This document shows, one piece after another, positions 2,349 to 30,551 of a DNA stretch of 64,000 nt. Within the stretch, counting starts at the first letter, position 1. Each line of letters begins with the position of its first letter. The stretch lies in NCBI GenBank assembly GCA_030427635.1, contig JAUIBA010000003.1:1-64000 (forward strand). Reading direction: 5' to 3'. The position numbers and the translations under genes are program-made. This stretch comes from Bacteroidia bacterium. GTDB lineage: Bacteria; Bacteroidota; Bacteroidia; Chitinophagales; Chitinophagaceae. Under the pieces are notes generated by a model. That model did not search any database and was not told the DNA's origin. It saw only the letters and a list, made by a program, of their open reading frames with translations.

Positions 2349-2351
2349 GCT

Positions 2352-2509: not shown

Positions 2510-2514
2510 CAGCC

Positions 2515-3780: not shown

Positions 3781-3830
3781 TGTGTATAATGCCAATAACT
3801 ATTTATCAGATACAAAAGCCGGTGCTGTAA

Positions 3831-6029: not shown

Positions 6030-6030
6030 T

Positions 6031-7406: not shown

Positions 7407-7451
7407 GGGATTATATTTGTACAGGTCAGTTTGGCTGCAGCCTGTATATGG

Positions 7452-8453: not shown

Positions 8454-8488
8454 CTTACTTATGTTTTTGAATACTTTATTTTATGAGT

Positions 8489-8496
8489 CAAAAGTA
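8489..8496 (-). promoter_or_regulatory. -7 box of the recA promoter
   Basis: On the minus strand the sequence is TACTTTTG, an exact TAnnTTTG, 35 bp upstream of the recA ATG. The -33 element is not clear. Confidence 0.5.
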
Positions 8497-8556
8497 GCAG
8501 AAAATGATACCCGATTTCAGGTTCCGGCAAAAAGATATCCACAATTTGAAAGCTGC

Positions 8557-9780
8557 TTAATAAAACTGTGTCAGATATGGGTAGCGCTCCTCATACAGCT
8601 TCTTTACCCGGCTCAGGATGGTATTACGCAGCCCGTCTATATTCCGCTTTTCTATAGCCGATACAAATATGGCAGAGTTGCCCGTCTGAGATTGCCAGCG
8701 GGCTTCAAGGTCGGTAAGCATCTCTTTCTTTACAGACTCGTCCAGCCACTCGTCAAACGTATTCTTTTCATACATATCCATCTTGTTAAAGATGACAAGT
8801 ATGGGTTTGTCAAATGCCTTTATATCCTGTAGTGTTTTGTTTACCACGCCCATCTGGTCTTCATAGCCGGGGTGCGATATATCTACCACATGCAGCAGGC
8901 AGTCGGCTTCGCGCACCTCATCCAGCGTACTCTTGAAGCTTTCTACCAGGTGGTGTGGCAGCTTGCGTATAAAACCTACCGTATCGCTGAGCAGGAAGGG
9001 GGTCTGCTCATACACAACTTTACGGGTGGTAGTATCCAGTGTGGCAAAGAGTTTGTTCTCGGCAAACACTTCCGACTTACTTAGTATGGTCATCAGGGTA
9101 CTCTTGCCTACATTGGTATAGCCCACCAGTGCCACACGCACATATGTACCGCGTTCCTTGCGCTGTGTTACGGCCTGTTTATCTATCTCACCCAGCCGTT
9201 TGCGCAGCAGGGCTATTTTGTCCTTTACTATACGGCGGTCGGTTTCTATTTCCGTTTCCCCCGGGCCCCTGCTACCGATACCGCCTCCCTGGCGTTCCAG
9301 GTGTTTCCACATACCCTTCAGCCTGGGCAGTATATACTGGTATTGTGCCAGTTCTACCTGCACCTTGGCCTGGGCCGTTTTGGCACGGCTGGCAAATATG
9401 TCCAGTATCAGGTCGCTGCGGTCTATGGTGCGTATGCCTGTGGCTTCTGTTATATTGCCTATCTGTGAGCCGGTAAGCTCATCATCAAAAATGATGAGTG
9501 TAGCACCCCGCGCATGGGCATACTCTTTTATCTCCTCCAGCTTGCCCTTACCTACAAAGGTTTTGCTGTCGGGTTTGGGTAGTTTCTGTATAAATGTTTT
9601 TACAGCGGTAGCGCCGGCTGTCTCTGCCAGAAACGCCAGCTCTTCCAGATATTCTTTGGCCAGGGTCTCGGTCTGCTCTTTGTATATGAGACCTACCAGT
9701 ATCGCCTTTTCTTCCTGATGTACTTTATTATTCTTATCGAGCAATGTATCCGATGTGTTTTTATTTGCCGGAACAGGCAA
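8557..9780 (-). CDS. hflX: ribosome-associated GTPase HflX
   Basis: HflX binds the 50S subunit and splits stalled or hibernating ribosomes, notably after heat stress. The product has the HflX N-terminal domain, the glycine-rich linker (RQGGGIGSRGPGETEIETDRR) and a G domain with G1 GYTNVGKST, switch/G3 DTVGFIRKLPHHLVESF and G4 NKMD. Length (about 400) is typical. The start is uncertain: TTG at 9780 lies one base after a perfect -7 box, which would make it leaderless or too early; TTG at 9744 is an alternative, and HflX homology only begins at about residue 24. Confidence 0.95.
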   Translation of the reverse strand: MPVPANKNTSDTLLDKNNKVHQEEKAILVGLIYKEQTETLAKEYLEELAFLAETAGATAVKTFIQKLPKPDSKTFVGKGKLEEIKEYAHARGATLIIFDDELTGSQIGNITEATGIRTIDRSDLILDIFASRAKTAQAKVQVELAQYQYILPRLKGMWKHLERQGGGIGSRGPGETEIETDRRIVKDKIALLRKRLGEIDKQAVTQRKERGTYVRVALVGYTNVGKSTLMTILSKSEVFAENKLFATLDTTTRKVVYEQTPFLLSDTVGFIRKLPHHLVESFKSTLDEVREADCLLHVVDISHPGYEDQMGVVNKTLQDIKAFDKPILVIFNKMDMYEKNTFDEWLDESVKKEMLTDLEARWQSQTGNSAIFVSAIEKRNIDGLRNTILSRVKKLYEERYPYLTQFY

Positions 9781-9781
9781 T

Positions 9782-9790
9782 GCAAAGCTA
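9782..9790 (-). promoter_or_regulatory. -7 box for hflX
   Basis: On the minus strand TAGCTTTGC is an exact TAnnTTTGC directly before the TTG at 9780, which argues for a very short leader or a slightly later start codon. Confidence 0.45.
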
Positions 9791-9862
9791 GCATATTCAG
9801 ACTACAGACAGATAATACACTGCCGGATGTATAGCATATTTTTTGCCAGCGTTTCTGCCAGA

Positions 9863-10228
9863 TTATTTCTTCGTTTCAGCAGCTTCGTTTTCCTGCACTC
9901 TGAACTGTACTATTCTGGTTATCAGGTCATCCGGCAGTGGCTGCCCGGTCGGGAACTGTACCGAACCTTTGGCATGTACATATTCCTGCTTCTCTGCTGC
10001 AAAAGCAGTAATGCCCGATGGGGTAGGGTAGAAGCCTATATGCTTTTTTGCCGCGGCATAATATACCAGTATGCGCCCGCAGTACCGTAGTGCAGGCATA
10101 CCATAGCTTATGGTTTCCTCTGCCTGTGGTGCCGCCGCTCTGATGATGGTACGCATTTGCTGCAGCAGGGGCTGCATAGCAGCTGGTTGTAATGATATAT
10201 AGGTATCAGTATCGTTACCGGTAGTCAT
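9863..10228 (-). CDS. DUF1801-domain protein
   Basis: A 121-residue cytoplasmic protein with the DUF1801 (YdhG-like) pattern: an N-terminal helix with repeated Gln/Leu (LLQQMRTIIRAAAPQAEETISYGMP), the strand pair RILVYYAAAKKHIGFYPTP, and KGSVQFPTGQPLPDDLITRIV. The fold is widespread, and no reaction has been established for it as far as I know. It ends in a short charged tail. It lies between hflX and a convergently oriented terminator region, with its own start at ATG 10228. Confidence 0.8.
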   Translation of the reverse strand: MTTGNDTDTYISLQPAAMQPLLQQMRTIIRAAAPQAEETISYGMPALRYCGRILVYYAAAKKHIGFYPTPSGITAFAAEKQEYVHAKGSVQFPTGQPLPDDLITRIVQFRVQENEAAETKK

Positions 10229-10284
10229 AGCATATGTATGTGAGTAGCTGCAAACCTATGCATATTTACACATGTTGCAGCAAA

Positions 10285-10317
10285 GCAAAAGCCTTCCGAA
10301 TCGTGGGAGGCTTTTGC
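10285..10317. terminator. terminator downstream of the T9SS cargo gene
   Basis: A 13-bp stem with one mismatch (GCAAAAGCCTTCC / GGGAGGCTTTTGC) and a 7-nt loop sits 14 bp past the stop codon of the 10331-11647 gene. The A-rich and T-rich stem ends allow it to act on either strand. Confidence 0.7.
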
Positions 10318-10330
10318 CTGGTCATTACTG

Positions 10331-11647
10331 TTACTTTATTACGGAGAATTGCTCGGATATCTTTCCTTGTTTGCCCACCAGTGTCAGTATATAGTGGCCT
10401 GGAGGAAGGTGGGAAATGGGTATCGTTTCCGTGTAGTACATACGCGGGCCTGAGGTCCAGCCGGTATATGTTTTTCCCTGCATATCGGTAATGGTTGCAG
10501 CGAAAGGCTGCGCTTCCTGCCATACTACGGATAGGTGGAGCTCGTTTGCTGCCGGTACAGGATATAGCTTTATGGTTGCCATACCGGCAGGTGCATCTTT
10601 TACCGATGCCGGTATCGTTTCATAATGAAAGCGGCTACCACACCAGGATGTGGCTATGTCCCATGTGCCGGTTCCTGTATTCCATTCTTCAAAATAGTGG
10701 AGGTCTGGTTTCCCATAGGCGTTATATATATAATTGTTTCTGTAGGCGCTGTCTGGCGTGTGCGTAATGGGATTCCACCCCATCGTTACACTTGTCCGGG
10801 GTTGATGCAGCATAGCAAAATCTCTGTTCAGTATTTGCCATGTGGTATCCCATGAGGTGCCGGAATAGTTTTCCCGCAGTTCGGTAATACGGTTGTCGGC
10901 CCCATCATAGGAAAACAATGTTCTGTATGTATCATACCATGCCAGAGTTGCTGTGTTCCACGATTGCGATGTCTCGATAGTAAGCCTGTCTGCAGCGTCC
11001 CATGTGTTGGTCAGTTTAGAATACGGCTCCCAGGTGGTAGTAGCGGTATTATAGTCATCTTCGGTACAGGTAGCAATTTTTCCTGTTCCGGTATAGGTAT
11101 ATGTCAGCCGCATATATCCATTCCATACACCGCTGGCATAGTTTTCATTCTGTTCAGTGATGATACGTCCGTCAGCATCTCTCACATATACGGTCCGTTG
11201 CAATGGTGCCCACTGCATCGTAACCCCGTTCCAGTTGTCATTAATAGCGGTATCCATATATCCTGCCGCATTGAATGTCTGTCGGTAACGGGAGTATGCA
11301 GCACCGGGTACGCCCGCTATAAAGGGGTACTGTGTAGCTGTATCATAATACCAGTACCACTGGTGTTCCCGCTCATTCAGATAGCCACCTTGAGCTCCGC
11401 TATAGGTCAGTGAAAAGCTGTCTATAGGGCTAAACGAGCCGGATGTATAGTTCAGATTTGCCGCAGATATCATGCGGATGTCGGCAGCTGTGCTCTTATT
11501 CATGGTGCCGGAATGTGCTTCCTGTGCTAGGTACATTGTGGTTGGGCTGTACCTGAGCGGATGAGGTACAGCATATGTCTGTGCTGATAGCTGTTGCGGT
11601 ATGGCCCATAGCATAGCCATCAGCATACCGGTTAAGGTTCTGTTCAT
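10331..11647 (-). CDS. T9SS-exported protein with Tyr/Trp-rich repeats
   Basis: The signal peptide (ending QQLSAQ) and a C-terminal type A sorting domain (about 360-438: IKLYPVPAANELHL, ITDMQGKTY, LPPGHYILTL) mark this as cargo of the type IX secretion system, exported to the cell surface or medium. The 300 residues between consist of degenerate repeats of about 35-40 residues with aromatic landmarks (W..Y.R....YD..D.ITE), of the kind found in Rhs-like or surface repeat proteins of Bacteroidota. No catalytic motif is visible. The function is unknown; adhesion is only a guess. Confidence 0.8.
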   Translation of the reverse strand: MNRTLTGMLMAMLWAIPQQLSAQTYAVPHPLRYSPTTMYLAQEAHSGTMNKSTAADIRMISAANLNYTSGSFSPIDSFSLTYSGAQGGYLNEREHQWYWYYDTATQYPFIAGVPGAAYSRYRQTFNAAGYMDTAINDNWNGVTMQWAPLQRTVYVRDADGRIITEQNENYASGVWNGYMRLTYTYTGTGKIATCTEDDYNTATTTWEPYSKLTNTWDAADRLTIETSQSWNTATLAWYDTYRTLFSYDGADNRITELRENYSGTSWDTTWQILNRDFAMLHQPRTSVTMGWNPITHTPDSAYRNNYIYNAYGKPDLHYFEEWNTGTGTWDIATSWCGSRFHYETIPASVKDAPAGMATIKLYPVPAANELHLSVVWQEAQPFAATITDMQGKTYTGWTSGPRMYYTETIPISHLPPGHYILTLVGKQGKISEQFSVIK

Positions 11648-11787
11648 TGTGTGTTTCTGATGTTTGGTTTGAATAATTAGTGCAGGTAGCGGTATCCTTA
11701 TAGTGCTATATTGAGATATTCATGCTGGTTAGTATATAAACGTATTTAGTAGCATGAAATTGTGCTGTTCGTTTTTTTTCGGTGCAG

Positions 11788-13038
11788 CTAATTGTGTGTC
11801 AGCGGGTTATTTCTGTCCATCAGCAGGTGAGTATACAGAACCAGATACCAGATGAAAAGCGGCAGTCTTATAAGGGGCTGCACACTACTGCGGCTCAGGT
11901 CGTGGCACAGTGTGGCCATTGAATCTCCGGGTACCATTGTTTTCATAAATGCGCCGTGAGATTCGAAGAATGCATACTCAGTTATGTAGGTAAGTGCGGC
12001 CAGTGTATAACCGGCTACCAGCATCCACTGCACTCTGCGCGATACGGTGGTGTACCACATTACTATCAGTGGCAGAAACCACAGTATATAGGGTGGAGAG
12101 TAGCCTGGCCCGAAGGTGGGTAGAAATACAAGCAGTGATAGTGCGGCGGCTACTATCTGGTGTGCCGTAAGCGAAGTGCGCCTGTGCAGCCGCCATGCAG
12201 CTGTAAGCATTACGGTAGATAGCAGAAACGGGGAGGCTGCACTCCACGCATCTACCCCGGTCTCGGCATGGAGTACATGCAGTATGCCGGTAAAGCCATA
12301 CCAGCCACTCATAGATCGGTAGCTGAGCACATGGGTAGATACGCCCACCGGCGCCAGTGTATAAATGACGCTCATGCCAATACATACAGGAGTCAGTACC
12401 ATGAGTGCGCCGGTAAGCGTTATTGTTTTTGCCCTCTCACGTATGCCCATTATCAGTAAGGGAGTCAGTACTATTGGTACCGTTTTGGCCAGTATGCCCA
12501 TACCCAGAAAGAAGCATGCAGCCAGCCAGTACTCTTCCCTTTTTTGTGTCACATATTCCATCAGGGTATAGATGAACAGTAATATCCAGCAGGATACCAG
12601 AATATCGAAATTGCAGTGCTGACAACTGAGAAATACAGATACAGGGTTAATGGCCAGTGCTGTAATCAGCAGTGAGGTTATCCGGTGTTTTTTGAAGAAG
12701 CGGGTGAGTATTACATAGCAGATAGTAAGTGCGGTCACTTCGCCGGCTATCAGTATGCTTTGTATAATGAGGGTGGTGGGTATATGCAGCACATCCGAAA
12801 GACGGCCGGCAAAGAATATAATCTGCATCCAGAATGGAGGCCAGTTAAGCACACCTGTCACTTCGTAGGGGTTGCCCCCGGCACGCAGCACATCTGTTAC
12901 GTCCAGCCATGCATATAAATCGCGGGAGTACACCTGAGGCATGAGCATTATAAACAGGATGCGTACCGCAAGCAGTATTATCACAGTTACCCAAAGGGGT
13001 TTGTGACTGGTTGTGGTATGGGGAGTGGGTATGCTCAT
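11788..13038 (-). CDS. GT-C/GT87-like polyprenol-sugar mannosyltransferase-type membrane protein
   Basis: This multi-pass membrane protein has about ten hydrophobic helices. Its first extracytoplasmic loop carries the GT-C pattern: an acidic residue soon after helix 1 (SRDLYAWLD), then GGNPYEVTGVLNWPP, the GT87/DUF2029-type signature. Members transfer sugars from polyprenyl-phosphate donors to lipids or glycans. A second acidic/His segment (QHCNFDILVS) fits the family. The ATG at 13038 is preferred; the frame is open to an upstream ATG at 13077, also possible because the preceding gene ends at 13087. The acceptor is unknown. Confidence 0.7.
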   Translation of the reverse strand: MSIPTPHTTTSHKPLWVTVIILLAVRILFIMLMPQVYSRDLYAWLDVTDVLRAGGNPYEVTGVLNWPPFWMQIIFFAGRLSDVLHIPTTLIIQSILIAGEVTALTICYVILTRFFKKHRITSLLITALAINPVSVFLSCQHCNFDILVSCWILLFIYTLMEYVTQKREEYWLAACFFLGMGILAKTVPIVLTPLLIMGIRERAKTITLTGALMVLTPVCIGMSVIYTLAPVGVSTHVLSYRSMSGWYGFTGILHVLHAETGVDAWSAASPFLLSTVMLTAAWRLHRRTSLTAHQIVAAALSLLVFLPTFGPGYSPPYILWFLPLIVMWYTTVSRRVQWMLVAGYTLAALTYITEYAFFESHGAFMKTMVPGDSMATLCHDLSRSSVQPLIRLPLFIWYLVLYTHLLMDRNNPLTHN

Positions 13039-13086
13039 GGAGGATGCTATGCTATAAATATAGTGTGTTACCGGCAATAAGAATCA

Positions 13087-14649
13087 TTAACCGGCATAGT
13101 GCTGCTGCACACACATTTCAGCACAGCGCTCACCGTCTATTGCCGCCGATACTATGCCTCCGGCATATCCTGCACCTTCGGCACATGGGAAAAGGCCTTT
13201 TATCTGCACATGTTCCAGTGTTTCCTTATCACGGGGTATGCGTACCGGTGAGCTGGTGCGGCTCTCTGTTGCTACCATTACGGCTTCCTCAGTATAGTAG
13301 CCCTTCATTTTCTTCCCAAAGGTCACTACCGCTTTTTGCAGGGCAGCATGTACTTCCTGTGGCAATACCGTTTTCAGCGGTACGCTGTGCAGGCCGGGCA
13401 GGTAAGAGCATCCGGGTAGGGTAGCGGAGCGTTTGCCGTTTACAAAGTCGGTCATGCGCTGTGCCGGTGCTACCAGTAGCCCGCCACCGGCTTTAAATGC
13501 CTGCTGCTCTACCATCTGCTGGTAGTGCATAGCAGCCAGTGGTCCGGTAAAACCATATCGGGCAAAATCTTTTTCGTCTACAGCCACCACAGTGCCTGAA
13601 TTGGCATAGGGGTTGTTACGTTTGGAAGGGCTCCAGCCATTTACCACCACCTCTCCCGGGGCCGTAGCTGCCGGAGCTATGATGCCACCGGGGCACATGC
13701 AGAATGAGAATACGCCACGGCCGGTTTCCTGTGCCACTAGTGAGTAGCTGGCAGGAGGCAGTCCGGTTTCTCTGACCGTACAGTGATACTGTGCAGCATC
13801 AATAATGCTCTGAGGGTGCTCTATACGCACACCTAGTGCAAAGGGTTTACACTCTATAAGTATCTTTTTCCGGTGCAGGAGCTCAAAGATGTCCCGGGCA
13901 GAATGTCCTGTAGCCAGGATTACTGCGCCGGATTTGATTACCGTGCCATCATCCGTCTTTATACCGTTTATCCTGTCGCCGTCCAGTAGCAGGTCCGTCA
14001 TACGGGTATTGAACAGTACTTCGCCACCACAGGCTATTATCTGCTCGCGCATGGCGGTGATAATATGCGGTAATTTATTGGTGCCTATATGAGGGTGAGC
14101 ATCAATGAGTATTTCCTCTGCTGCGCCAAAGTGGTGAAACAACTGCAGTATCCGCTGCACATTGCCACGTTTGGTAGACCGTGTGTACAGCTTACCATCA
14201 CTATAGGTGCCTGCACCACCCTCACCAAAGCAGTAGTTCGACTCAGGATTTACTACTCCTTCTTTGTTTATAGCCGCAAGATCTCTGCGACGGCTGCGCA
14301 CATCTTTGCCCCGCTCTATGATGATAGGTTTACGCCCCAGCGATATGAGCCGCAGAGCAGCAAACAGCCCTGCAGGTCCGGCTCCTACTATCACTACAGC
14401 CGGTACATTGCTTACGTTCTGCAGCTGCGGGTCAAATGCAGGTGCCTCTGGCAGCGGTTCATTAACCGCTATTGTTACCTGCAGTACAAAGCGTGCCTGC
14501 CGGGAGCGTGCATCTATGGAGCGTTTCAGTATACGGTGGCCTGTTATGCTTTTCGTGGTCACGCCGCATTCCTCGGCAGCTACGCGCAGTATGGTGCGGG
14601 TGTCTGCTGCATCGGCAGGGGCCAGTACTATGTTCACTGTTTTTATCAT
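13087..14649 (-). CDS. COG2509-type FAD-dependent dehydrogenase
   Basis: The 520-residue product matches the uncharacterised FAD-dependent dehydrogenase family COG2509. It has an N-terminal ~80-residue domain with a conserved basic pattern (RILKRSIDARS), the FAD-binding motif VGAGPAGLFAALRL (about 88-101), the family-specific FGEGGAGTYSDGKLYTR, CPGGIIAPAAT, and a C-terminal FAD-closing segment (GLFPCAEGAGYAGGIVSAAIDG). The physiological substrate is not established. It lies 48 bp before the membrane glycosyltransferase on the same strand, so they may share a transcript, although no functional link is evident. Confidence 0.9.
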   Translation of the reverse strand: MIKTVNIVLAPADAADTRTILRVAAEECGVTTKSITGHRILKRSIDARSRQARFVLQVTIAVNEPLPEAPAFDPQLQNVSNVPAVVIVGAGPAGLFAALRLISLGRKPIIIERGKDVRSRRRDLAAINKEGVVNPESNYCFGEGGAGTYSDGKLYTRSTKRGNVQRILQLFHHFGAAEEILIDAHPHIGTNKLPHIITAMREQIIACGGEVLFNTRMTDLLLDGDRINGIKTDDGTVIKSGAVILATGHSARDIFELLHRKKILIECKPFALGVRIEHPQSIIDAAQYHCTVRETGLPPASYSLVAQETGRGVFSFCMCPGGIIAPAATAPGEVVVNGWSPSKRNNPYANSGTVVAVDEKDFARYGFTGPLAAMHYQQMVEQQAFKAGGGLLVAPAQRMTDFVNGKRSATLPGCSYLPGLHSVPLKTVLPQEVHAALQKAVVTFGKKMKGYYTEEAVMVATESRTSSPVRIPRDKETLEHVQIKGLFPCAEGAGYAGGIVSAAIDGERCAEMCVQQHYAG

Positions 14650-14697
14650 GCTGCGGCAACCGGGGAAAATAAAAGTTCTGGAGTTGTTTGAATCCGT

Positions 14698-15066
14698 TTA
14701 TATAAGGTCCTTGCCCTCAAAGCTCATCTTCAGATAGCTGAACATGAGTATGATGGAGGCAGCTATACTTAATACTCCTGCTCCTACCATGCCGTATATG
14801 AATGGGTCAAATCCGGCCTTGCCGCCCCATGCCACAAAATGCAGCGTGCCGAATATGGACATCAGCAGCACAATGATACCTACTACCAGGTTGGCAATGC
14901 GATGATTATAATATGCCTGTATCGTAAAAATCACCAGCATGATAAGTGCATTATAATTAATACCTCCGCCTGCATACAGGCCCGCTATTACCCATGACAG
15001 GGATAGCAGTATGAGGAAGCCGTAAGCGGCATACACCAGTTTCCGGTAAGACAGTTTTTTCTGCAT
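14698..15066 (-). CDS. small membrane protein with four predicted helices
   Basis: From the ATG at 15066 the product is 122 residues: a short basic N-terminus (MQKKLSYRKLV) and four hydrophobic segments. The frame extends to 15207, but that part is not hydrophobic or signal-like and would overlap the start region of the divergent gene, so the shorter form is preferred. It resembles the many uncharacterised four-helix membrane proteins of Bacteroidota. No function can be assigned. Confidence 0.6.
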   Translation of the reverse strand: MQKKLSYRKLVYAAYGFLILLSLSWVIAGLYAGGGINYNALIMLVIFTIQAYYNHRIANLVVGIIVLLMSIFGTLHFVAWGGKAGFDPFIYGMVGAGVLSIAASIILMFSYLKMSFEGKDLI

Positions 15067-21797: not shown

Positions 21798-24095
21798 ATG
21801 TTATCCAGATTATCATTTCCTGTATTATTGTTTTTGCTTGTTGTTTCCGGTAGTATATCGGCACAGAATATAACCATTAGTGGTTATGTATCTGATGGCA
21901 GCAGCGGTGAGCGGCTCACAGGTGCCGTCGTATTTATTCCCGGTATGGAGATAGGCACCAGCAGTAATACTTTCGGGTTTTACTCTATTACCCTGCCCGC
22001 CGGCGATAGTGTTACCCTCAGTGCTGCCTATGTAGGTTATGCCACATTTGCCCGTCGTATAGCCCGGGATAGTAATCTCACTATGAATATAGAGCTGGGT
22101 GAAAGCCATGAGCTGAAAGAGGTGGTAGTAAGCGCAGAAAAAGCGTTGCAGGAGCGCACTCAGATGAGTTCCATAGACCTGCCTATACAAACTGTAAAAT
22201 CCCTTCCTGCCTTCCTGGGTGAGCCGGATATTATGAAGGCTATACAGTTACTGCCCGGTATTCAGGCAGGTAATGAGGGCACCTCAGGGCTTTATGTACG
22301 TGGTGGCAGCCCCGATCAGAATCTGATATTGCTGGATGGGGTACCGGTTTACAATGCCAGTCACCTGTTTGGTTTCTTCAGCGTGTTCAATGCCGATGCC
22401 ATACGCAGCGTAGAGGTCATAAAGGGAGGCTTTCCTGCCCGTTATGGTGGTCGTCTCTCATCGGTAATAGATATCAATATGAAGGAGGGCGATAAAAATA
22501 AACTGCATGGAGAGGGTGGTATAGGTATTATTGCTTCCCGCCTTACACTGGAGGGGCCCATAAAAAAAGGTAAGTCTTCCTTCATGGTATCGGGCCGCCG
22601 CACGTATATAGATGTGCTGGCCGCACCGTTTATGAACAAGGATTCAAAAGGCGGTTACTACTTCTACGACCTTAACGGCAAGGCCAACTTTACCCTGGGT
22701 AAAAAAGACCACATTTACGTCAGTGGTTATTTTGGCAATGATAAGTTTTATTTCAAGGATAAGTCGGGCAATGATGATAACACCAGCTCCACATTTGCAG
22801 GTGGCATCCGCTGGGGCAATACTACAGCAGTAGCCCGCTGGAATCATCAGTTTTCCCCACAGGTATTTGGCAACCTCACCAGCTATTACAGCCGGTACCG
22901 GTTTCAGGTTACTGCCGAGGCCAACACTTCCGGCAATGGTGTAAATGAAGATTATCTACTGAAGTTTTCTTCCGGCATCAATGATATGGCTGTGAAGTAT
23001 GACTTTGATATCATCCCCTCTGTCAATCACTATATCAAAACAGGGGTAAGCGCTATATATCATACCTACACGCCCGGCGCACAGACCACTAAGCTCAATA
23101 GTAATACAGGCTCTGACTACGATACCACTATAGGCCAGCCCTCTATATACAGTACCGAGACTGATGTATATGTAGAGGATGATATCCGCTTCAGCTCAAA
23201 GCTGAAAGTAAATGTGGGCCTGCATCTGGCAGGGTTCTATGTACGGGAAAAGCTATACACATCTCTTCAGCCACGTTTATCGGGCCGTTATCTTATCAAT
23301 GAAAAGCTCAGTGCCAAGGCATCCTTTGTGCAGATGAATCAGTATATCAATCTCCTTACCAATTCATCTATCGGCCTGCCTACCGACCTCTGGGTACCAT
23401 CTACCGATAGGGTAGCGCCGCAGCTTTCCCGTCAGGGGGCTGTAGGTATGGCCTATACACATGATGCCGGCTTTGAGGTAAGTGTAGAGGGCTATTACAA
23501 GACCATGGAAAACATTATTGAGTACAAGGAAGGTGCAGGCTTCTTTAACAGTGCCAATAACTGGGAAGACAAGATAGAAAGCGGCAAGGGCAGCAGTTAC
23601 GGAGGTGAGCTGTTTATACAGAAAAAGAAGGGCCGCTTTACGGGCATGCTGGGTTATACCCTCTCATGGACCAACCGCACCTTTGCCAATCTGAACAATG
23701 GCAAACAGTTCCCCTATAAGTACGACCGCCGGCACGACTTTAAGGTGGCTGGCGTGTACACCATATCGCCCCGCATAGAGGTAAGTGCAGAGTGGGTATA
23801 TGGCACTGGCAATGCTATTACGCTGCCCGTAGGCTACTACCAGCTGGGTACCACCGGCGAGCGCATTACCCTCTATGGCAGCCGCAACGGTTACCGCATG
23901 CCGCCCTATCACCGTGGCGATGTCAGCATCCGGTTCACGAAAGAAAAGGAGCGTTTTACCCGCTCATGGATACTGGGTGCATATAATGTGTATAACCGTA
24001 AGAATCCGTTTTTCATCTATGAGGACAATGGCCGCTTTAAGCAGATAAGCCTGTTCCCCATTATACCATCAGTAAGCTACCAGTTTAAATTCTAA
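21798..24095 (+). CDS. TonB-dependent receptor with CarboxypepD-regulatory domain
   Basis: An outer-membrane active transporter energised by TonB-ExbBD. The signal peptide ends in SISAQ. Residues about 22-105 form the CarboxypepD_reg-like domain (ISGYVSDGSSGERLTGAVVFIPG), followed by the plug (LLPGIQAGNEGTSGLYVRGG, QNLILLDGVPVYNASHLFGF) and a 22-strand barrel ending SVSYQFKF with a terminal Phe. At 765 residues it is shorter than SusC proteins and belongs to the smaller DUF4249-associated class. The stop codon is followed 3 nt later by the DUF4249 lipoprotein gene, so the two form an operon. The ligand is unknown. A paralogous pair lies at 47.4-50.5 kb. Confidence 0.93.
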   Translation: MLSRLSFPVLLFLLVVSGSISAQNITISGYVSDGSSGERLTGAVVFIPGMEIGTSSNTFGFYSITLPAGDSVTLSAAYVGYATFARRIARDSNLTMNIELGESHELKEVVVSAEKALQERTQMSSIDLPIQTVKSLPAFLGEPDIMKAIQLLPGIQAGNEGTSGLYVRGGSPDQNLILLDGVPVYNASHLFGFFSVFNADAIRSVEVIKGGFPARYGGRLSSVIDINMKEGDKNKLHGEGGIGIIASRLTLEGPIKKGKSSFMVSGRRTYIDVLAAPFMNKDSKGGYYFYDLNGKANFTLGKKDHIYVSGYFGNDKFYFKDKSGNDDNTSSTFAGGIRWGNTTAVARWNHQFSPQVFGNLTSYYSRYRFQVTAEANTSGNGVNEDYLLKFSSGINDMAVKYDFDIIPSVNHYIKTGVSAIYHTYTPGAQTTKLNSNTGSDYDTTIGQPSIYSTETDVYVEDDIRFSSKLKVNVGLHLAGFYVREKLYTSLQPRLSGRYLINEKLSAKASFVQMNQYINLLTNSSIGLPTDLWVPSTDRVAPQLSRQGAVGMAYTHDAGFEVSVEGYYKTMENIIEYKEGAGFFNSANNWEDKIESGKGSSYGGELFIQKKKGRFTGMLGYTLSWTNRTFANLNNGKQFPYKYDRRHDFKVAGVYTISPRIEVSAEWVYGTGNAITLPVGYYQLGTTGERITLYGSRNGYRMPPYHRGDVSIRFTKEKERFTRSWILGAYNVYNRKNPFFIYEDNGRFKQISLFPIIPSVSYQFKF

Positions 24096-24098
24096 GTC

Positions 24099-25007
24099 AT
24101 GAAAAGCAACAACAGCATATATAGCCTCATCATAATAGCAGCACTTTTCTTCACCTCCTGCGAAAAGTCGATTAATGTCAATGTACCACCGCAGGTATCC
24201 CGCCTCACGGGTGCCATAATAGGCGAGGTGGGCACACCGCTGTATGTTACCGTAGGGCGCACAGCAAAGCTCACAGAAAGTGGTATCAGTACAGACCTCG
24301 CCATTCGTGATGCAAAGGTGCAGCTATATGAAGATGATGTACTGGCTGAGACCCTCGTGTACGATTCCTCAGTAGCCAGTTACCCCTCTGCCACTATTAC
24401 CCGGCCCGGCCACCGTTATAAGGTGCGCATAGCTGCTCCCGGCTATGAAGATGCCGAGGCTACAGAAACGGCCCCCACTCTTGTACCTGTAACCCGTGTA
24501 GAGCGCCAGTACGATGTGCGCAGCATGGATGGCAGTAAGCAGGATGCCGTTATCCTCACCTTTACCGACCCGCCCTCTCCCAACGACCATTATGTCATAG
24601 CCATTACCGGCCCGCAGGACTCATTCCAGTACCATGGCGATTTCTGCGTCTATTCCCCCGACCCTGCAGTAGAATCTCCTCAGGAAGATGTAACCGAGGG
24701 TAGTGTATGCCTGCATAGTTATGGCATCTTCCTGCGCGATATTATTTTCAACGGGCAGGAGCGCGCAGTAAAATTTTATGTGGAAGGTGGCTCACTGGGC
24801 CCATACTATAACGGCACCGACTCCATATATGCACACATAACCCTGTGGCATGTATCAGAGGCATACTACCGCCACCTGCAAACCCTTCAGGTAGCCTTCG
24901 ATGCCGGCAACAACCCCTTTGCCGAACCCGTTAACGTACACACCAACTTCACCAACGGCTACGGCATCTTCGCCATTACCGCCATGGAAGATAGGGAGAT
25001 AAGGTAG
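24099..25007 (+). CDS. DUF4249-family lipoprotein
   Basis: The signal peptide ends in a lipobox (LFFTSC, Cys 21). The mature protein has the DUF4249 pattern: early beta strands (VNVPPQVSRLTGAIIGEVG, YVTVGRTAKL), a Pro/Gly-rich middle (RPGHRYKVRIAAPGYEDAEA) and a C-terminal region (ITLWHVSEAYYRHLQTLQV) ending just after FTNGYGIFA. DUF4249 proteins are almost always encoded next to TonB receptors in Bacteroidota and are thought to be surface-exposed partners of the transporter. The gene ends only 31 bp before the left repeat of the genomic island. Confidence 0.88.
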   Translation: MKSNNSIYSLIIIAALFFTSCEKSINVNVPPQVSRLTGAIIGEVGTPLYVTVGRTAKLTESGISTDLAIRDAKVQLYEDDVLAETLVYDSSVASYPSATITRPGHRYKVRIAAPGYEDAEATETAPTLVPVTRVERQYDVRSMDGSKQDAVILTFTDPPSPNDHYVIAITGPQDSFQYHGDFCVYSPDPAVESPQEDVTEGSVCLHSYGIFLRDIIFNGQERAVKFYVEGGSLGPYYNGTDSIYAHITLWHVSEAYYRHLQTLQVAFDAGNNPFAEPVNVHTNFTNGYGIFAITAMEDREIR

Positions 25008-25037
25008 AGGGGGATTATGAGGTGTATTTACATCGGT

Positions 25038-25056
25038 CTTACTTCCCGATACAAAA
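25038..25056 (-). repeat. left att-like repeat (copy of the mnmE 3' end)
   Basis: The plus strand reads CTTACTTCCCGATACAAAA; its complement reads TTT TGT ATC GGG AAG TAA, that is, FCIGK and stop, but with no mnmE gene upstream of it. It matches 29056-29074 except for one base (A for G at 25054). Confidence 0.8.
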
Positions 25057-25174
25057 TGTAAAGAGTATTGATTCTAGTGCGTTCTATGGGATTCAGCCAC
25101 AGAATAGTACCAAAGTCACGGAAAAAAACGGAAAATAGATGCAAATACGATACTAATAAGTAAGAAGTATACGT

Positions 25175-26403
25175 TCACCCTTCGTCGTCCCCTTCCCATC
25201 CAAGTTTAATTAGCGCCAAATCAATATAAAGTATTCGCTCTTCTGAGTGAATGAAATTATGGTACCACTGCCCGAAATTATAGACAATATTGAACATGAA
25301 CTGTCCTTCATTTTTTAATCGTAGTTCTGTCAGAACTCGAAAGAAGCCGCTAACAGAAATGAAAAGTGGTAGCTCCTCTTTTTGATATTGTTGTATGATA
25401 TTTCTACTATTGGCTTCATCAAGGATTGTTTTATCATTCACCAAGCAAATCTTCACAACGAAATTTACTCGATCTATCAGTTTAGCAAAAACGTCATCCA
25501 CCAAACGAGCTTCTTTGTTTTTTATTAGTTTTTCAGCTCTATCCAGCTGTTCGACTGCCTTCTTTATTGCAGCATTTCTCTTAGTTGTTTTATCGCTGAT
25601 GACGTATTTTGATTCAATAATTATGCAAGCGTTTTTATAGATCACAAGAAAGTCGGCGAATTCATTACCATCAACTTGCTTTGGCGATACAAAAAAATCA
25701 ACATTGGGCTTTAATAGTCTCAAGAAATTATTAAGAACTGAGAGCTCTTGCCAATAACCATGTTTACCGTCTCCAGCGTAATCATCATAATTAAATGCGC
25801 CATGCTTTATTATCGCTTCACTCTGGACGTCATAGTCATAGTCAGGCGAAATTATTATTAGCTTCTTTTCTTTTGAATTGTCCTTGTTTAGTACTTTAAC
25901 TCTGAAACCGGTTCGCTCATTTTCTGGGAAATATATCCCTAAAACATCTTTAGGAACATTTTTGAACTCATCATGGCTTTGCACTTTCAGCAGCCAAGAA
26001 CTAAATTCATCAGCACTATAATCAAGTTCAAGAAACGTTGTAAAAATTGGATGAGAAAACTCATTGTAGAGTACCACTCGAATTTGAGGCTTGGTCAAAA
26101 GCTTCATAACAATTTCGTCAAAACCCCTCACAGCTTTGTCTTCATCACTAAAATTCTCCCCAGTTACACAATACGGATTTGTTAGTATATCATAGGCATA
26201 AAGGGTACAAGTTCTAACAGCAATGTTTGGATTTCGCAATACAATTTCAATTGGACAGCCATTGATAATACTAGTCAACAACGAAGCATCTAGCTTTACT
26301 AACAATGCTATTCGGCCGTCTTCTTCCTCGTCAATAAAAAACCATGTAATAGGCCTTTCAACTTTTCAAACATTTCTTCTTGAGGGAAATAGACGTATGT
26401 CAT
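25175..26403 (-). CDS. PD-(D/E)XK nuclease-like protein, 5' end split by a -1 frameshift
   Basis: The main frame (TTG 26305, 376 residues) shows a PD-(D/E)XK core: E187 in YWQELSVL, D218 in EFADFLV, E231-S-K233 in CIIIESK, and Q253 in a following helix. About 185 residues precede the core, with no recognised domain. There is no ATG at the start. An ATG at 26403, 10 nt after the stop of the preceding gene, opens a frame encoding MTYVYFPQEEMFEKLK before running into a TAG at 26310-26308, while the main frame is open back to about 26375 and reads RPITWFFIDEEEDGRIALL, a natural continuation. The gene therefore needs one -1 shift: a one-base deletion, a sequence error, or frameshifting at the heptamer at 26341-26335. 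Confidence 0.65.
26335..26341 (-). other. slippery heptamer T TTT TTA at the frame junction
   Basis: On the minus strand, in the frame starting at ATG 26403, codons GGT TTT TTA form the exact -1 frameshift heptamer T TTT TTA (as in HIV-1 gag-pol). A -1 slip here enters precisely the frame of the nuclease ORF. No convincing hairpin or pseudoknot is seen downstream, so chance occurrence in an AT-rich gene is quite possible. Confidence 0.3.
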
Positions 26404-26413
26404 AAAAAATTAA

Positions 26414-27205
26414 TTATAGTCCATTTGCGAACTTATCATTGTGGTTATTATCTAGCATGTAAAGTATAAACTCTTTCAGCCACTGATATTTATCTACATG
26501 GCTTTGCCCATTCATGCTCTGAATTTTCTCATTGATTGTTTTCAGGTGTTTTTCTAATAACATATTCCTGATTTTCTTTTCAGGTAATAATTCGTCTCCT
26601 AATTTTTTCGCAAAAAACATTTCATCAACAATTGAATAATTAAAAGGATTTAGAAAGTTCCTTCCGGCATTGTCATGGGCGAACATATAATTGTAATAGC
26701 TTTCATTAGCAAAATTTCTTTCGTTTATTTCCGACAAGAGTTTTGATGAAATCATTATAAGTGGGTACACGGCTTGCTTTGATTCGATATAATAGGCTTC
26801 AACTTGCGCTTTCGAGAAAATAATATCACTGTCCTCGTAGTGCCAGCCTTGGGTGATTCCTCCACGGCATAAAAAGCCGTTATCAAGTAGTTCATTGTAA
26901 AATACCATTATCCACTCATAAAATGCAACAAGATTCTGTTTATAGTCTTTTTCTCCTCTTTCAAATTCTAATGGTATAGAAAAACAAAAGCAATCTGAAA
27001 AGCTTTTTATTTTAAACTCTTCGTACCAAAAATTATACTCGTGATTTAATTCTTTTTTTCGCATTTTCATATCGTCGGTTCCTTTTGAAACTGCCGTCTT
27101 TAAGATTTGAAGGTATTCACCAGTTCCATTATCTCTTTCAATTAAATCTCGAAAACCCAAGACATCAATAAATGCTACAAAACACTCTTTAATTCTATTA
27201 GGCAT
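26414..27205 (-). CDS. class III nucleotidyl cyclase-like protein (divergent)
   Basis: The first 160 of 263 residues follow the order of a class III cyclase domain. FVAFIDVLGF (residues 9-18) corresponds to the first metal-binding Asp (D14); KIKSFSDCFCFSIP (65-78) to the second (D71, usual form GD-x-x-x-x-F); RGGITQG (114-120) to RIGIHTG; FSKAQVEAYYIESKQAVYPLIMIS (130-153, in two parts) to the AVN-AARL...ILVS region. The catalytic Asn/Arg of true adenylate cyclases are not evident, so product formation is uncertain; it could be a degenerate cyclase, a pyrimidine cyclase as in Pycsar, or a nucleotide-binding regulator. The C-terminal 100 residues are helical and unrecognised. It is the middle gene of the island operon, with gaps of 9 and 10 nt. 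Confidence 0.5.
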   Translation of the reverse strand: MPNRIKECFVAFIDVLGFRDLIERDNGTGEYLQILKTAVSKGTDDMKMRKKELNHEYNFWYEEFKIKSFSDCFCFSIPLEFERGEKDYKQNLVAFYEWIMVFYNELLDNGFLCRGGITQGWHYEDSDIIFSKAQVEAYYIESKQAVYPLIMISSKLLSEINERNFANESYYNYMFAHDNAGRNFLNPFNYSIVDEMFFAKKLGDELLPEKKIRNMLLEKHLKTINEKIQSMNGQSHVDKYQWLKEFILYMLDNNHNDKFANGL

Positions 27206-27214
27206 AAAAAATGG

Positions 27215-28462
27215 TTAGAGGTGAACTAATTTATAAATAGGATACAAACGTTGGAATTCGGTTAAAACTGTATCAGCAATATTTTCTTCCGAAAGGGATA
27301 AGTCATCAATCTTATAGTCTCGACCAACTATAAAATAATCTGAATATTCGTCAGTCTGGATAAAGTACTTTAATTGTTTTCTGCTTGTAATCTCACTAAC
27401 ATTTAATTTTTTCGACCCGATATTTATCCAATACGAGCCCCCTAGATTCAAAACTTCTTGGTAAAATAATTCTGAAAAGAAAACAGAGTTCTCCAAATCT
27501 TCTTTCAATTTCCTCCTTTCTGAGTAACACCCACCGTCTTTGCCAATCACAAACCATATCCCTATGTACTTCCATCTAAGTATTACTTGAATACGCGGAT
27601 GGTCTATAAAACTAGCGTCCTTCATTTCTGGTTTAGAATATCCATAGTGCAGCCATATTGATTCTAAACTAGGTTGATTAAAGTTCTTTCGGTAAGTATG
27701 ACTTGATACAATGTTTTGAGCATGGTAATGCTTATTTAGTGCGTTCAAGCCCCATGCTGGAAATTGTGGGTAGATTAAGTTATGCAATTGCTGCAACCTA
27801 TTTTTCACTAATTTACGCCTGTCGTTCGCTGGCTTTAGATAATCTTTATAGTATCTCGGATTATACGCTTCAAAATGATTGGATTTAAAGAATTGACCTT
27901 GAATATTTAACAAGGGTTGTGCAGTATTGTTGTTTAGTGTGTTCGATATGCCAGTAATATCAGAACGGATTATTGCCTGATTTCTCTTAATCTTTTTGAA
28001 AGCAATTTTATACTTTTCTAAGAATTCTTGCGTGATCTTCGAAGATTGATTGAAAAGACTATTAAACCATTCAATTAGTTGATTGCACTGAATAGAATCT
28101 TCTATACTCACGGTCATCTCAATATTTGTCGAAAGCCCACCGTTTGTAGTATTGGCAGACCCAACGAATGCTATAAGTGAGTTATCTTGTTTTCTTAGAA
28201 TATAGACTTTGGGATGAAAGGTTTTAGAAGAATTGTAGATTCTAGCATTTAGTTTGCTGCTATCATTTTGTTCCATCAGTTCTTCGAGAACGTAAGGGCT
28301 AGAAGGCAGATCAATTCCAACTACATAGTTGCAAAAACAGCTTGGGGGTAAATTATTCTTTAAGAAATCAAAACCTTTTGGACTTATAAGAGCTGAGGCT
28401 ACAAAAATTTCTTTAGCAGCAGGAAGATGTATTTTTAATTCGGACTCAAGGCTACTAATCAT
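27215..28462 (-). CDS. single-HKD phospholipase D-type nuclease protein
   Basis: The N-terminal 180 residues are a PLD-like domain: a Rossmann-like start (IFVASALISPKGFDFLKNNL), then FHPKVYIL with the H83-x-K85 pair, AFVGSANTT (G101-S102-x-N104) and NIEMTV with an acidic residue (E115) in place of the HKD Asp. This arrangement is typical of BfiI/NgoFVII-type nucleases, which use one HKD half-site per subunit and work as dimers. The C-terminal ~230 residues (IQVILRWKYIGIWFVIGKDGG, YFIVGRDYKI, EFQRLYPIYKLVHL) are unrecognised and could recognise DNA. It is the first gene of the island operon; its promoter must lie in the long non-coding region upstream. Expected activity: metal-independent nucleic-acid cleavage (inference). 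Confidence 0.65.
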   Translation of the reverse strand: MISSLESELKIHLPAAKEIFVASALISPKGFDFLKNNLPPSCFCNYVVGIDLPSSPYVLEELMEQNDSSKLNARIYNSSKTFHPKVYILRKQDNSLIAFVGSANTTNGGLSTNIEMTVSIEDSIQCNQLIEWFNSLFNQSSKITQEFLEKYKIAFKKIKRNQAIIRSDITGISNTLNNNTAQPLLNIQGQFFKSNHFEAYNPRYYKDYLKPANDRRKLVKNRLQQLHNLIYPQFPAWGLNALNKHYHAQNIVSSHTYRKNFNQPSLESIWLHYGYSKPEMKDASFIDHPRIQVILRWKYIGIWFVIGKDGGCYSERRKLKEDLENSVFFSELFYQEVLNLGGSYWINIGSKKLNVSEITSRKQLKYFIQTDEYSDYFIVGRDYKIDDLSLSEENIADTVLTEFQRLYPIYKLVHL

Positions 28463-29056
28463 TTGAAATTCAGTTTATGCGTCTCGAATAGTTTTGAAGT
28501 TGGCTAGAATGCTCTCTACGTCCCTAATTGGCGCAAGTGTTTTCCACTTGTGTCACCCGGTAGCAAGTCTTTGGGACTTGTAAATACAACTACCGTAGCC
28601 CCATTTCGTTAATTGCAACAGCAATATAATTCATTATCACACTTAAAAATACGTGAATACACCCATTGGCAATTTGAGAAAATACCAGTACCCATTTTTG
28701 CCGTTATTATGGAGTCATGCAAACTCCGTCATATAGCAAAAACATATCCACAAATTTCAGTGCCTGCCATACCCCGGCTATAGCTGTCGTACCTTTGCCC
28801 TGCCGGTTATACCATCAGCCGGCACCCCATGAGCTATGAACCCTGCTATCAGTTATAAAAGCCACATATTATTATTTTTTGCCGCGAAAAATGTGAGCAG
28901 TTTTTGCGCAGTTTTGGGAAGTTTATGGCTTGTTTGTCGTCATGTAACTAATTGGTTGTTAATTTATTGTGTGCATGTTGCACAGCCGCAGCTGCGCATA
29001 TAAAAATAACTGCGCAGTTTTTTGCGGTAGCAGTACACTAGCAAAAGTTTTACCCC
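28463..29056. other. 594-bp non-coding end of the island with several palindromes
   Basis: No credible coding frame was found. It contains the paired hairpins at 28531-28580, a plus-strand TACCTTTGC box at 28790-28798 followed by a GCCGG/CCGGC hairpin, a TGTGCA-TGT-TGCACA palindrome at 28970-28984, the 12-bp palindrome AACTGCGCAGTT at 29008-29019, and a repeated GCGCAGTTTT motif. It must hold the promoter of the island operon and perhaps the recombination site arms of the right end; a small RNA from the 28790 box is possible but unproven. Confidence 0.5.
28531..28580. repeat. REP-like pair of short hairpins
   Basis: CAAGTG-ttttc-CACTTG (28534-28550) and CAAGTC-tttgg-GACTTG (28564-28580) are separated by 13 nt ending in GGTAG. 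A GTAG tetranucleotide immediately 5' of a palindrome is the hallmark of REP elements mobilised by RAYT transposases. No RAYT gene is in the window. Copies elsewhere in the genome cannot be checked here. Confidence 0.4.
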
Positions 29057-29074
29057 TTACTTCCCGATACAGAA
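29056..29074 (-). repeat. right att-like repeat (true mnmE 3' end)
   Basis: The plus strand reads CTTACTTCCCGATACAGAA; its complement TTCTGTATCGGGAAGTAA encodes the last five residues of MnmE and the stop codon. This 18-bp end is the known attachment site of SGI1-type islands in trmE. Confidence 0.8.
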
Positions 29075-30448
29075 CTTGGAGAAAATGTAGTCAAGTTTAT
29101 CCTCTGTGGTTACAACGCCGGTTATCTCTCCCAGGTAATACAGGCACCTTCTTATGTCGGCAGAGAGGAGGTCGCCGGGTAGTCCGGCATCCATTCCGGC
29201 TTTAATGTCGGCCAGTGAGCGCAGCACCTCCTGCAGTGCGGCATAGTGGCGGGCATTGGTTACTATAGTGCCCTCATGCTGCACCATGCCATCGGTCACC
29301 AGTTCATACAGCCTGTCTTTCAGCAGTTGTATATGGTCCCGGTTCTGTGCAGATAGTAGTAGTACATTTTCACCGGCAGCATGGAGGGCATCAGCAGCCT
29401 GTTGTGCATCGGCTATATCTACCTTGTTGCCCACCAGCAGGTGTTTTACCCCTTGTGCTTGTAGTGCTTCAGTCTGTCGCAGCAGTTCTGTTTTCTCATA
29501 GTCCGATTCCAGCCATGCAGCCACGTCAAAGAGATACACCACCACATCTGCCTTGTTCATAGCCTCGCGGCTGCGTGCTATGCCTTTCTGTTCTATCACA
29601 TCGGTAGTATGCTCCCTGATGCCTGCGGTATCTATGAGCCTGAAGGTGATGCCGTTTATGTTCAGCAGTTCTTCTATAGTATCGCGTGTGGTCCCCGCTA
29701 TTTCGCTTACTATAGCACGCTCCTCATTGAGCAGTGCATTGAGCAGGGTGCTTTTTCCGGCATTAGGTTTACCCACAAGTGCCACACTTACCCCGTTCTT
29801 GATAGCATTACCCAGGCCAAAGGAGCGCAGCAGTTCACTGGCAGAGAGTTCTATCCCGGCTATCAGCTCATAGAAGCGGCTGCGGTCGGCAAATTCTACA
29901 TCCTCCTGGCTGAAGTCCAGTTCCAGCTCTATGAGTGCGCTGAACTGAATGAGCTGCTCCCGCATCGCCATCAGGTCGTGACTGAAGCCGCCGCGCAGAT
30001 GGTGCATGGCAGCCTTGTGTGCACTGGCGGTATCGCTGGCTATAAGGTCGGCCACGGCCTCGGCCTGTGTAAGGTCCAGCCTGCCGGCCATAAATGCCCG
30101 CATGGTAAACTCTCCGGCCTGTGCCAGCCGGGCTCCCCGGGAAGTACACAGCAGCAGTACCCGCTGCAATATGTAGGCGCTGCCGTGGCAGCTTATCTCG
30201 GCTATATCCTCGCCCGTATAGCTGCGCGGACCTTTATAGATGCTTACTACCACCTCGTCTATTACAGTATCGCCATTCACTATCCGCCCAAAGTGCAGTG
30301 TGTGGCTGGCCTGCTGCATGAGGTCTTTACCGCGGAAGATGCTGTTCACAATACTGATGGCCTCCTTACCGCTCAGGCGGATGATGCCTATGGCGCCTGC
30401 CCCGGGTGGGGTGGCAATGGCTGCTATGGTGTCGCTGTTATGATGCAC
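29057..30448 (-). CDS. mnmE: tRNA modification GTPase MnmE
   Basis: MnmE with MnmG adds the carboxymethylaminomethyl (or aminomethyl) group at U34 of certain tRNAs. The N-terminal tetrahydrofolate-binding domain (DTIAAIATPPGAGAIGIIRLSG) is followed by a helical domain and an inserted G domain with G1 GKPNAGKST, G2/G3 IAGTTRDTIEE and DTAGIREHTTD, and G4 NKVD. The C-terminus is FCIGK with the invariant Cys. GTG at 30448 gives a start matching homologues (MHHNSDTIAAIATPPG) and lies 3 nt after an exact -7 box; the frame also contains an earlier GTG at 30481, which that box makes unlikely. The 3' end doubles as the attachment site of the adjacent island. Confidence 0.96.
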   Translation of the reverse strand: MHHNSDTIAAIATPPGAGAIGIIRLSGKEAISIVNSIFRGKDLMQQASHTLHFGRIVNGDTVIDEVVVSIYKGPRSYTGEDIAEISCHGSAYILQRVLLLCTSRGARLAQAGEFTMRAFMAGRLDLTQAEAVADLIASDTASAHKAAMHHLRGGFSHDLMAMREQLIQFSALIELELDFSQEDVEFADRSRFYELIAGIELSASELLRSFGLGNAIKNGVSVALVGKPNAGKSTLLNALLNEERAIVSEIAGTTRDTIEELLNINGITFRLIDTAGIREHTTDVIEQKGIARSREAMNKADVVVYLFDVAAWLESDYEKTELLRQTEALQAQGVKHLLVGNKVDIADAQQAADALHAAGENVLLLSAQNRDHIQLLKDRLYELVTDGMVQHEGTIVTNARHYAALQEVLRSLADIKAGMDAGLPGDLLSADIRRCLYYLGEITGVVTTEDKLDYIFSKFCIGK

Positions 30449-30451
30449 GCA

Positions 30452-30460
30452 GCAAAGGTA
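30452..30460 (-). promoter_or_regulatory. -7 box for mnmE
   Basis: On the minus strand TACCTTTGC is an exact TAnnTTTGC. The start codon at 30448 follows after 3 nt, so the transcript would be leaderless or nearly so. Confidence 0.45.
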
Positions 30461-30551
30461 CAGGATGCCGCTGTGTAACACATAGGCTGCCGCGGTATGT
30501 AAAGGAAATCAGTAGGCTTTTCGTTACCTTTAAATCAGTAAAAGCAGGGTA

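Follow-up and report, generated by a model that had tools for sequence, protein, structure and literature searches.

The 64,000-nucleotide (nt) stretch analysed here, which we call the window, comes from the genome of a Bacteroidia bacterium of the family Chitinophagaceae (contig JAUIBA010000003.1 of assembly GCA_030427635.1). It holds three closely spaced genes on a small island at the 3′ end of mnmE, which an initial annotation had read, from the sequence alone, as a candidate three-gene defence system made up of a PLD nuclease, a cyclase-like protein and a PD-(D/E)XK nuclease. Is the trio one antiphage system, and what does a cyclase-like protein do beside two nuclease-like ones? Our answer is tentative, with a probability of about 0.4: the mnmE 3′ end harbours a small, non-autonomous island whose cargo is a candidate antiphage cassette, consisting of a degenerate cyclase-fold protein and exchangeable nucleases. 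The three-gene system is partly supported, and is better read as one case of a cyclase-fold protein that recurs with exchangeable partners, here on an mnmE mini-island.

An integrase-less island at the mnmE 3′ end

The window contains two copies of the sequence CTTACTTCCCGATACARAA, at 25038 and 29056, compared with a mean of 0.00 over 100 shuffles. The repeat pair is identical over 16 nt, and the copy at 29056 is the 3′ end of mnmE. Between the copies the GC content is 0.355, against 0.531 for the remainder of 24001–30500. The cargo is the gene trio alone, all on the minus strand, and no integrase was found among the three genes of 25057–29055. From the repeat pair, with its second copy in the mnmE end, the window shows a 4.0-kb integrase-less island at this position, and its base composition is foreign. 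The earlier description of an integrated island holding only three genes is borne out by the repeats and the GC shift, and the three open reading frames (ORFs), their common strand and the 9-nt gap between genes 1 and 2 are as first described. The features are:

25038–25056, plus strand: distal copy of the attachment-site repeat, the far end of the island, with the GC change close by
25057–29055: mini-island without an integrase, spanning about 4.0 kb between the two repeats, GC 0.355
25175–26305, minus strand: gene 3 (ORF), probable PD-(D/E)XK (NERD-like) nuclease, 376 amino acids from TTG
26308–26403, minus strand: short frame with its ATG 10 nt past the gene 2 stop, 31 codons and then a stop
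26414–27205, minus strand: gene 2 (ORF), predicted class III nucleotidyl-cyclase fold, 263 amino acids
27215–28462, minus strand: gene 1 (ORF), PLD-family nuclease-like, 415 amino acids
29056–29074, plus strand: mnmE-side copy of the attachment-site repeat, including the final mnmE codons and stop
29057–30481, minus strand: mnmE (trmE/thdF), named by eye from the sequence; its 3′ end is the integration site

In the part of PMC5704250 available to us, a cis-mobilisable element is one that retains its attachment (att) sites while its integration and transfer genes are missing. The island has this make-up, with att sites kept and integration and transfer genes absent. It would probably move only with a related tyrosine recombinase supplied in trans. 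At gathering thresholds, Rfam gave nothing in 24900–29300, and a Bacteroidota-type promoter pattern had 0 exact matches in the same interval and one relaxed match, inside gene 2. The minus strand of 25008–25174, which contains the distal repeat copy, is predicted to fold better than its shuffles (z −2.97), of which 3 in 200 did equally well.

Gene 2 has a class III cyclase fold with an altered active site

Gene 2 matched nothing in Pfam, NCBIfam or PADLOC (no PADLOC family even at E up to 10). Across 73 sequences of its family, no Pfam family matches more than one member. Its AlphaFold2 model, calculated from a 73-sequence alignment, has a predicted local distance difference test score (pLDDT) of 89.1 and a predicted template modelling score of 0.89. 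Foldseek returned 467 matches to this model at E up to 10, with 17 at E up to 0.001 and a best E of 2.2e-5; the 50 listed of the 467 are all class III cyclases or cyclase-like proteins. In the predicted structure, a class III nucleotidyl-cyclase fold for gene 2 is well supported, and the class III pattern noticed in the initial annotation held up. Searches of PDB sequences with the single proteins of genes 1–3 gave nothing useful.

The active site was located with two profile alignments, which give the same register. The first is to PDB 3mr7 (E = 1, sub-threshold, second half only). The second is to class III domains from 4 of 12 loci (E 7.6e-5, probability 34%), these four having been chosen by an expression requiring VNxA(A/S)R. 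In this register D14 and D71 are the two metal Asp residues, as had been claimed, and R114-G115 aligns with the RxGI motif; but the segment Q-V-E-A-Y-Y is aligned to V-N-V-A-S-R, which places V135 and Y139 where the catalytic Asn and Arg would stand. In class III cyclases this Asn and Arg are transition-state residues. Across the 73 sequences of alignment A4, the Asn place is N in two and the Arg place is R in eight. All 22 sequences of alignment A1, which was gathered without the D14 pattern, have both D14 and D71; D71 is also kept in 73 of 73 in A4, where conservation of D14 is built in because the search pattern fixes it. The available part of the Pycsar structure paper (PMC11224242) names the two Asp as the catalytic residues. 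Gene 2 is perhaps a degenerate cyclase-fold protein acting as a nucleotide sensor, and its earlier label as a nucleotide-signal protein is unproven because it may not be catalytic.

Ordinary class III cyclase matches vary widely within the genus of the window: 28 and 24 in two genomes (G409 and G398), two in the window's own genome and 0 in two others (G401 and G407).

Relatives of gene 2 adjoin changing nucleases

Gene 2 is matched in 16 of 395 genomes of the phylum and 14 of 394 of the family, counts that include the window's genome, and in 42 plasmid records, and its family spans several phyla. It had no match in the phage collection, and viral contigs held no close relatives of genes 1, 2 or 3. 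A scan of the collection gave 152 gene 2 relatives, for which 80 loci were kept. Four of the 80 duplicate loci from the family genomes; counting these once and excluding plasmids, there are about 105 distinct gene 2 loci.

Neighbours were defined as genes of at least 80 amino acids on the same strand within 200 nt, taken from a simple ORF caller, which gave 83 genes around the 80 loci. As a control we used 83 genes drawn from 114 lying at least 4 kb away. The adjacent genes include ParA-like ATPases (8), N6_Mtase (4), MmeI methyltransferases (3), C5 methylases (2) and HsdS (2), these matches overlapping. In the control, none of these is among the families with two or more members, which do include AIPR (2) and the YhcG nuclease (2). 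Each of the two tables lists 25 families, and single matches may be missing from either.

A PD-(D/E)XK-like gene lies within 100 nt of gene 2 in at least five of the roughly 105 loci (the window, L053, L092, L094 and L102), a count obtained by reading the loci, with no systematic screen. BLAST among the five partner nucleases gave chance-level matches only (E 0.57 and 0.82). On a quick 90-row tree the five loci are scattered and need 4 label changes (shuffled mean 4.9), at least two of which are forced by well-supported branches. The closest group of the window's gene 2 is L094, L095 and L083 (support 84), joined next by L097 and L082 (support 93); both values are below the program's mark of 95. 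The partners of gene 2 are exchangeable, being Mrr-like, methyl-directed or PDDEXK_4-like nucleases or restriction–modification enzymes. This range suggests that gene 2 is an accessory used by restriction-type nucleases in general.

Conserved co-occurrence of the three genes, which the initial annotation had looked to for its system, was not seen beyond the window's own genome. Gene 2 is matched in 137 of 213 collected loci, some of them overlapping, and genes 1 and 3 (E 0.01) are also matched in only three of these, all from that genome. The recurring pattern is looser than the trio: a gene 2 relative with a changing nuclease or other effector.

Other mnmE ends carry islands and defence genes

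We matched the 3′ part of mnmE in 54 of the 60 genomes drawn as relatives (the window's own included). A search of the window's bacterial family with an 18-nt degenerate pattern gave matches in 215 of 254 genomes, and among the matches listed there are at least 12 repeat pairs (same contig and strand, less than 40 kb apart). Six of the 12 were taken for study, and with the spans of G383, G631, G406 and G441 they make 10 spans besides the window. mnmE was confirmed at nine of the 10; L212, which has no mnmE, was excluded from the island count, as was L210, with host-like GC and metabolic-looking genes by eye. A tyrosine recombinase is present in three of the remaining eight spans, as the first gene after mnmE in L203 and L213 and the second in L209. 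By eye, among ORFs of at least 70 amino acids, the other five have no recombinase-like ORF; four of these (L053, L082, L208 and L211) belong to the window's bacterial family and L207 to another family of the same order.

Three integrase-less mnmE islands hold a gene 2 relative: that of the window, that of G383, with a nuclease-like gene, and that of G631, with a gene that is SIR2-like by eye. Defence genes are found at further mnmE ends. The 13.4-kb island of L213 (G653:C14:543500-560500, 1360–14750), with its tyrosine recombinase adjoining mnmE, carries the Thoeris proteins ThsA (2.3e-206) and two ThsB as well as LmuB (1e-44), and the cargo of L207 includes a type IIG restriction enzyme. The trmE/mnmE 3′ end is a known target of SGI1-type islands, as described in the available portion of PMC8409611, and the portion seen of PMC12595487 describes small Pseudomonas islands downstream of tmRNA that also have direct repeats and carry defence genes, though these islands encode an integrase. 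The earlier proposal of a candidate defence locus is plausible, because gene 2 relatives recurrently adjoin genes for restriction and defence, and because Thoeris, LmuB-type and type IIG restriction genes are found at mnmE ends elsewhere in the order.

At 4191–4403 of L207, the far end of its 8.7-kb span, the C-terminal end of mnmE is present once more (71 amino acids, 49%), and this island looks as if it brings a spare mnmE gene end. The window's own genome encodes, at G000:C41:35977-36423 (L188), a tyrosine recombinase with 31% identity over most of its length to an mnmE-island recombinase; it is a possible helper for the island.

Gene 1 is PLD-like and gene 3 has a divided 5′ end

Gene 1 has an N-terminal PLD domain at about residues 59–145 (Pfam RE_NgoFVII 1.2e-9, PLDc_2 1.6e-9) and exceeds the Pfam cut-off for the NgoFVII-type PLD family (PF09565; 38.1 bits against 23.8). 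Its C-terminal half is separate from this domain and without an assigned fold. In an alignment of four proteins, H83, K85, G101-S102-x-N104 and E115 are invariant. The canonical HKD motif is HxK(x4)D, and gene 1 has Arg90 instead of Asp at the last place; the PLD part of the original HKD-nuclease assignment stands, with its His, Lys, Ser and Asn, while the canonical Asp does not. A distant, near-full-length relative is encoded on a Paenibacillus plasmid (23.5% identity over 95%). PADLOC matches are to PbeA, ZacB and DrmC models (best 5e-9), all inside residues 15–161, and cover 132–220 of 672 positions of PbeA and 33–138 of 153 of one short DrmC model; against the NCBIfam DrmC model, gene 1 scores 22.3 bits for a cut-off of 133. 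No cyclic-nucleotide-binding domain was found in gene 1 or gene 3 (Pfam, E up to 10).

The core of PD-(D/E)XK nucleases is D-x(10-20)-(E/D)xK with a Glu on an upstream helix. Gene 3 conforms to this pattern with D218-x12-E231-S-K233 and an upstream E187, and the motif makes it a probable PD-(D/E)XK (NERD-like) nuclease, as originally assigned. Its profile match to NERD is sub-threshold (E = 0.027, residues 182–263, 15.4 bits against a cut-off of 22.1) and its AlphaFold2 model, from the single sequence, is unusable (pLDDT 35). Gene 3 had no match in plasmids, and 395 genomes of the phylum and 388 of the family gave no credible relative apart from the window's own gene; two matches in the phylum genomes (L047 and L048, E 0.004 and 0.009) were dropped as chance because they lie in the frames of aminotransferase-like and histidine-kinase-like genes, as judged by eye.

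The 10-nt gap formerly given between genes 2 and 3 does not hold for gene 3 as an ORF. Such a gap needs the ATG at 26403, and that frame stops after 31 codons, while the TTG start of gene 3 at 26305 lies 108 nt past gene 2. The short frame meets the gene 3 frame at six consecutive T (minus strand, 26336–26341). The frame change may stem from a sequencing error or a genuine break, or gene 3 may use an alternative start.

Comparison with known systems

No known system was matched by the trio in Pfam, PADLOC or NCBIfam, in agreement with the first impression that the combination has no name. Nor is the trio or the cyclase-like family named in the literature covered, which includes few subscription papers and takes in the available parts of PMC11224242, PMC12839542, PMC13092281, PMC8409611, PMC5704250, PMC10952713 and PMC12595487.

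Pycsar, in which a PycC cyclase that makes cCMP or cUMP on infection is paired with a PycTIR or PycTM effector, is similar in having a class III fold protein with both metal Asp residues and an adjoining effector-type gene. It differs in that the island's effectors are nuclease-like and have no cyclic-nucleotide-binding match, whereas the PycTIR effector is defined with such a domain in the available part of PMC11224242, and in that the Asn and Arg are replaced in gene 2. We rejected Pycsar as an identification: genes 2 and 3 have no PADLOC match, gene 1 has only PLD-type models of other systems, and there is no cyclic-nucleotide-binding effector.

Mokosh systems include an RNA helicase and are not known to include a cyclase-like gene. 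The type I form, in the part of PMC10952713 we could consult, likewise has PLD-like and NERD-like domains in one system; the island trio, unlike it, has a cyclase-like gene, and Mokosh was rejected because none of the three genes has a helicase match in Pfam. DISARM, Azaca and PbeABCD were rejected too, as gene 1 matches their PLD part only and genes 2 and 3 match nothing.

Single genes and the island also have counterparts. PDB 6yii, from P. aeruginosa, is titled a class III cyclase-like, ATP-binding protein and resembles gene 2 (Foldseek E 3.7e-3), but its chain is longer (473 amino acids) and only 9% identical; the literature search found no paper on it. Restriction enzymes of the NgoFVII/BfiI type (PF09565) share with gene 1 an N-terminal PLD domain and a separate C-terminal half, but the island has no methyltransferase partner and the DNA-recognition domain of gene 1 is putative at most. 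SGI1-type and other trmE/mnmE islands use the same gene end and short direct repeats, and cis-mobilisable elements also have att sites without integration genes; the window's island is unlike them in its 4 kb, its three genes, its presence in the Chitinophagaceae and the lack of relaxase, integrase or resistance genes.

Weighing the explanations

In the mechanism we propose, gene 2 would bind a metal–nucleotide, its classic cyclisation chemistry being lost or altered, and would serve as a sensor or licensing subunit for a nucleotide-related signal. On infection, it would release or activate both nucleases, and phage or host DNA would be cut. A wider claim is that an uncatalogued class III cyclase-fold family is a general sensor licensing exchangeable nucleases (PLD, PD-(D/E)XK, restriction–modification) against phages, in integrase-less mnmE mini-islands mobilised in trans, with the metal Asp kept, Asn and Arg changed and a new conserved Arg, R149, shared by most members but absent from the window's protein; this we consider doubtful. 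If true, the cyclase fold would be a new building block of bacterial immunity, serving as a nuclease-licensing sensor instead of synthesising a messenger. Many 'hypothetical protein' genes beside restriction systems would gain a testable role, and the mnmE end would stand out as a defence hotspot of the window's bacterial family, its tiny islands depending on a helper recombinase. The gene 2 family has the appearance of an interchangeable component of bacterial antiviral systems.

Several results weigh against a licensing sensor with exchangeable nucleases. Foldseek TM-scores for gene 2 are moderate (0.32–0.46 by query length), and R149, present in 70 of 73 relatives in A4, is Leu in the window's protein. 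There is a single sighting of the exact trio. Gene 3 is an orphan and its 5′ end is divided, so it may be broken or misassembled. Among the five PD-(D/E)XK-like partners the only strong match is that of L092 (gap 0 nt, mREase_II 1.1e-42). The partner in L094, the locus of the closest gene 2 relative, lies 10 nt from it and is sub-threshold (PDDEXK_4, E = 0.024), the gene 2 start there lying outside the called frame. In L053 (gap 63 nt) the motif was found by eye, with no meaningful Pfam and no PADLOC match, and in L102 the gene is 92 nt upstream, sub-threshold (PDDEXK_5, E = 0.017), without a strict motif and without a PADLOC match. Most gene 2 relatives have no adjoining nuclease, six plasmid neighbourhoods show none by annotated name, and the SIR2-like gene of G631 has neither a Pfam nor a PADLOC match. 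Control genes 4 kb away include pAgo, LmuA and other PADLOC matches; proximity to gene 2 is therefore partly an island effect. Two doubts weigh most: whether the trio is a single unit, given its one sighting and a possibly broken gene 3, and the weakness of the matches on which several of the partner nucleases are based.

A rival view is that there is no single system here, and that a decayed cis-mobilisable island holds unrelated restriction-type cargo brought side by side by chance. The missing integrase, the single sighting of the trio and the divided gene 3 would all fit, as would the PLD relatives on Paenibacillus and Brevibacillus plasmids, which have no gene 2 relative within 5–6 kb on each side. 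Chance is harder to reconcile with gaps of 9 and 10 nt (the latter measured to the short frame) on one strand, with the recurrence of a gene 2 relative and a nuclease-like gene at gaps of 10 nt (L094), 0 nt (L092) and 63 nt (L053), and with gene 2 relatives on two further mnmE islands from the same bacterial family as the window's. We regard this view as rather doubtful. That gene 2 instead works in a Pycsar-like manner, making a cyclic nucleotide on infection to which PLD and PD-(D/E)XK effectors respond, agrees with the class III fold, both metal Asp residues and the nuclease-type neighbours, and with CBASS genes directly upstream of the relative in L090. Replacement of the aligned Asn and Arg in nearly all members, the lack of a cyclic-nucleotide-binding domain in either partner and the lack of PADLOC matches for genes 2 and 3 make this unlikely. 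A toxin–antitoxin-like arrangement, with gene 2 neutralising one or both nucleases and the cassette kept by addiction, would suit a compact operon on a mobile island whose nuclease-like partners change; yet gene 2 relatives often have no nuclease, and their conserved residues would seem to resemble an enzyme-type pocket more than a fast-changing interface, so this appears quite improbable.

Other neighbours of the gene 2 relatives

Beyond nucleases, a ParA-like ATPase gene lies directly upstream of the gene 2 relative in eight of the 80 loci (L096, L098, L099, L100, L103, L108, L120 and L135). These eight need 2 label changes on the 90-row tree, and the ParA-like and cyclase-like genes form a separate recurring two-gene pair, nearly one clade. 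In L090 (G697:C338, 1304–9573) a CBASS cyclase (1.9e-74) and a 2TM effector (1e-30) are directly upstream of the gene 2 relative, these genes sitting in what resembles, by eye, a type I restriction operon. One of the six plasmid neighbourhoods has an AbiE-type pair just upstream, and the locus of another relative (L067) has a ZorA-like gene (5.1e-29). By eye, cyclase-like genes also stand amid DISARM-like genes in L173 and BREX-like genes in L104.

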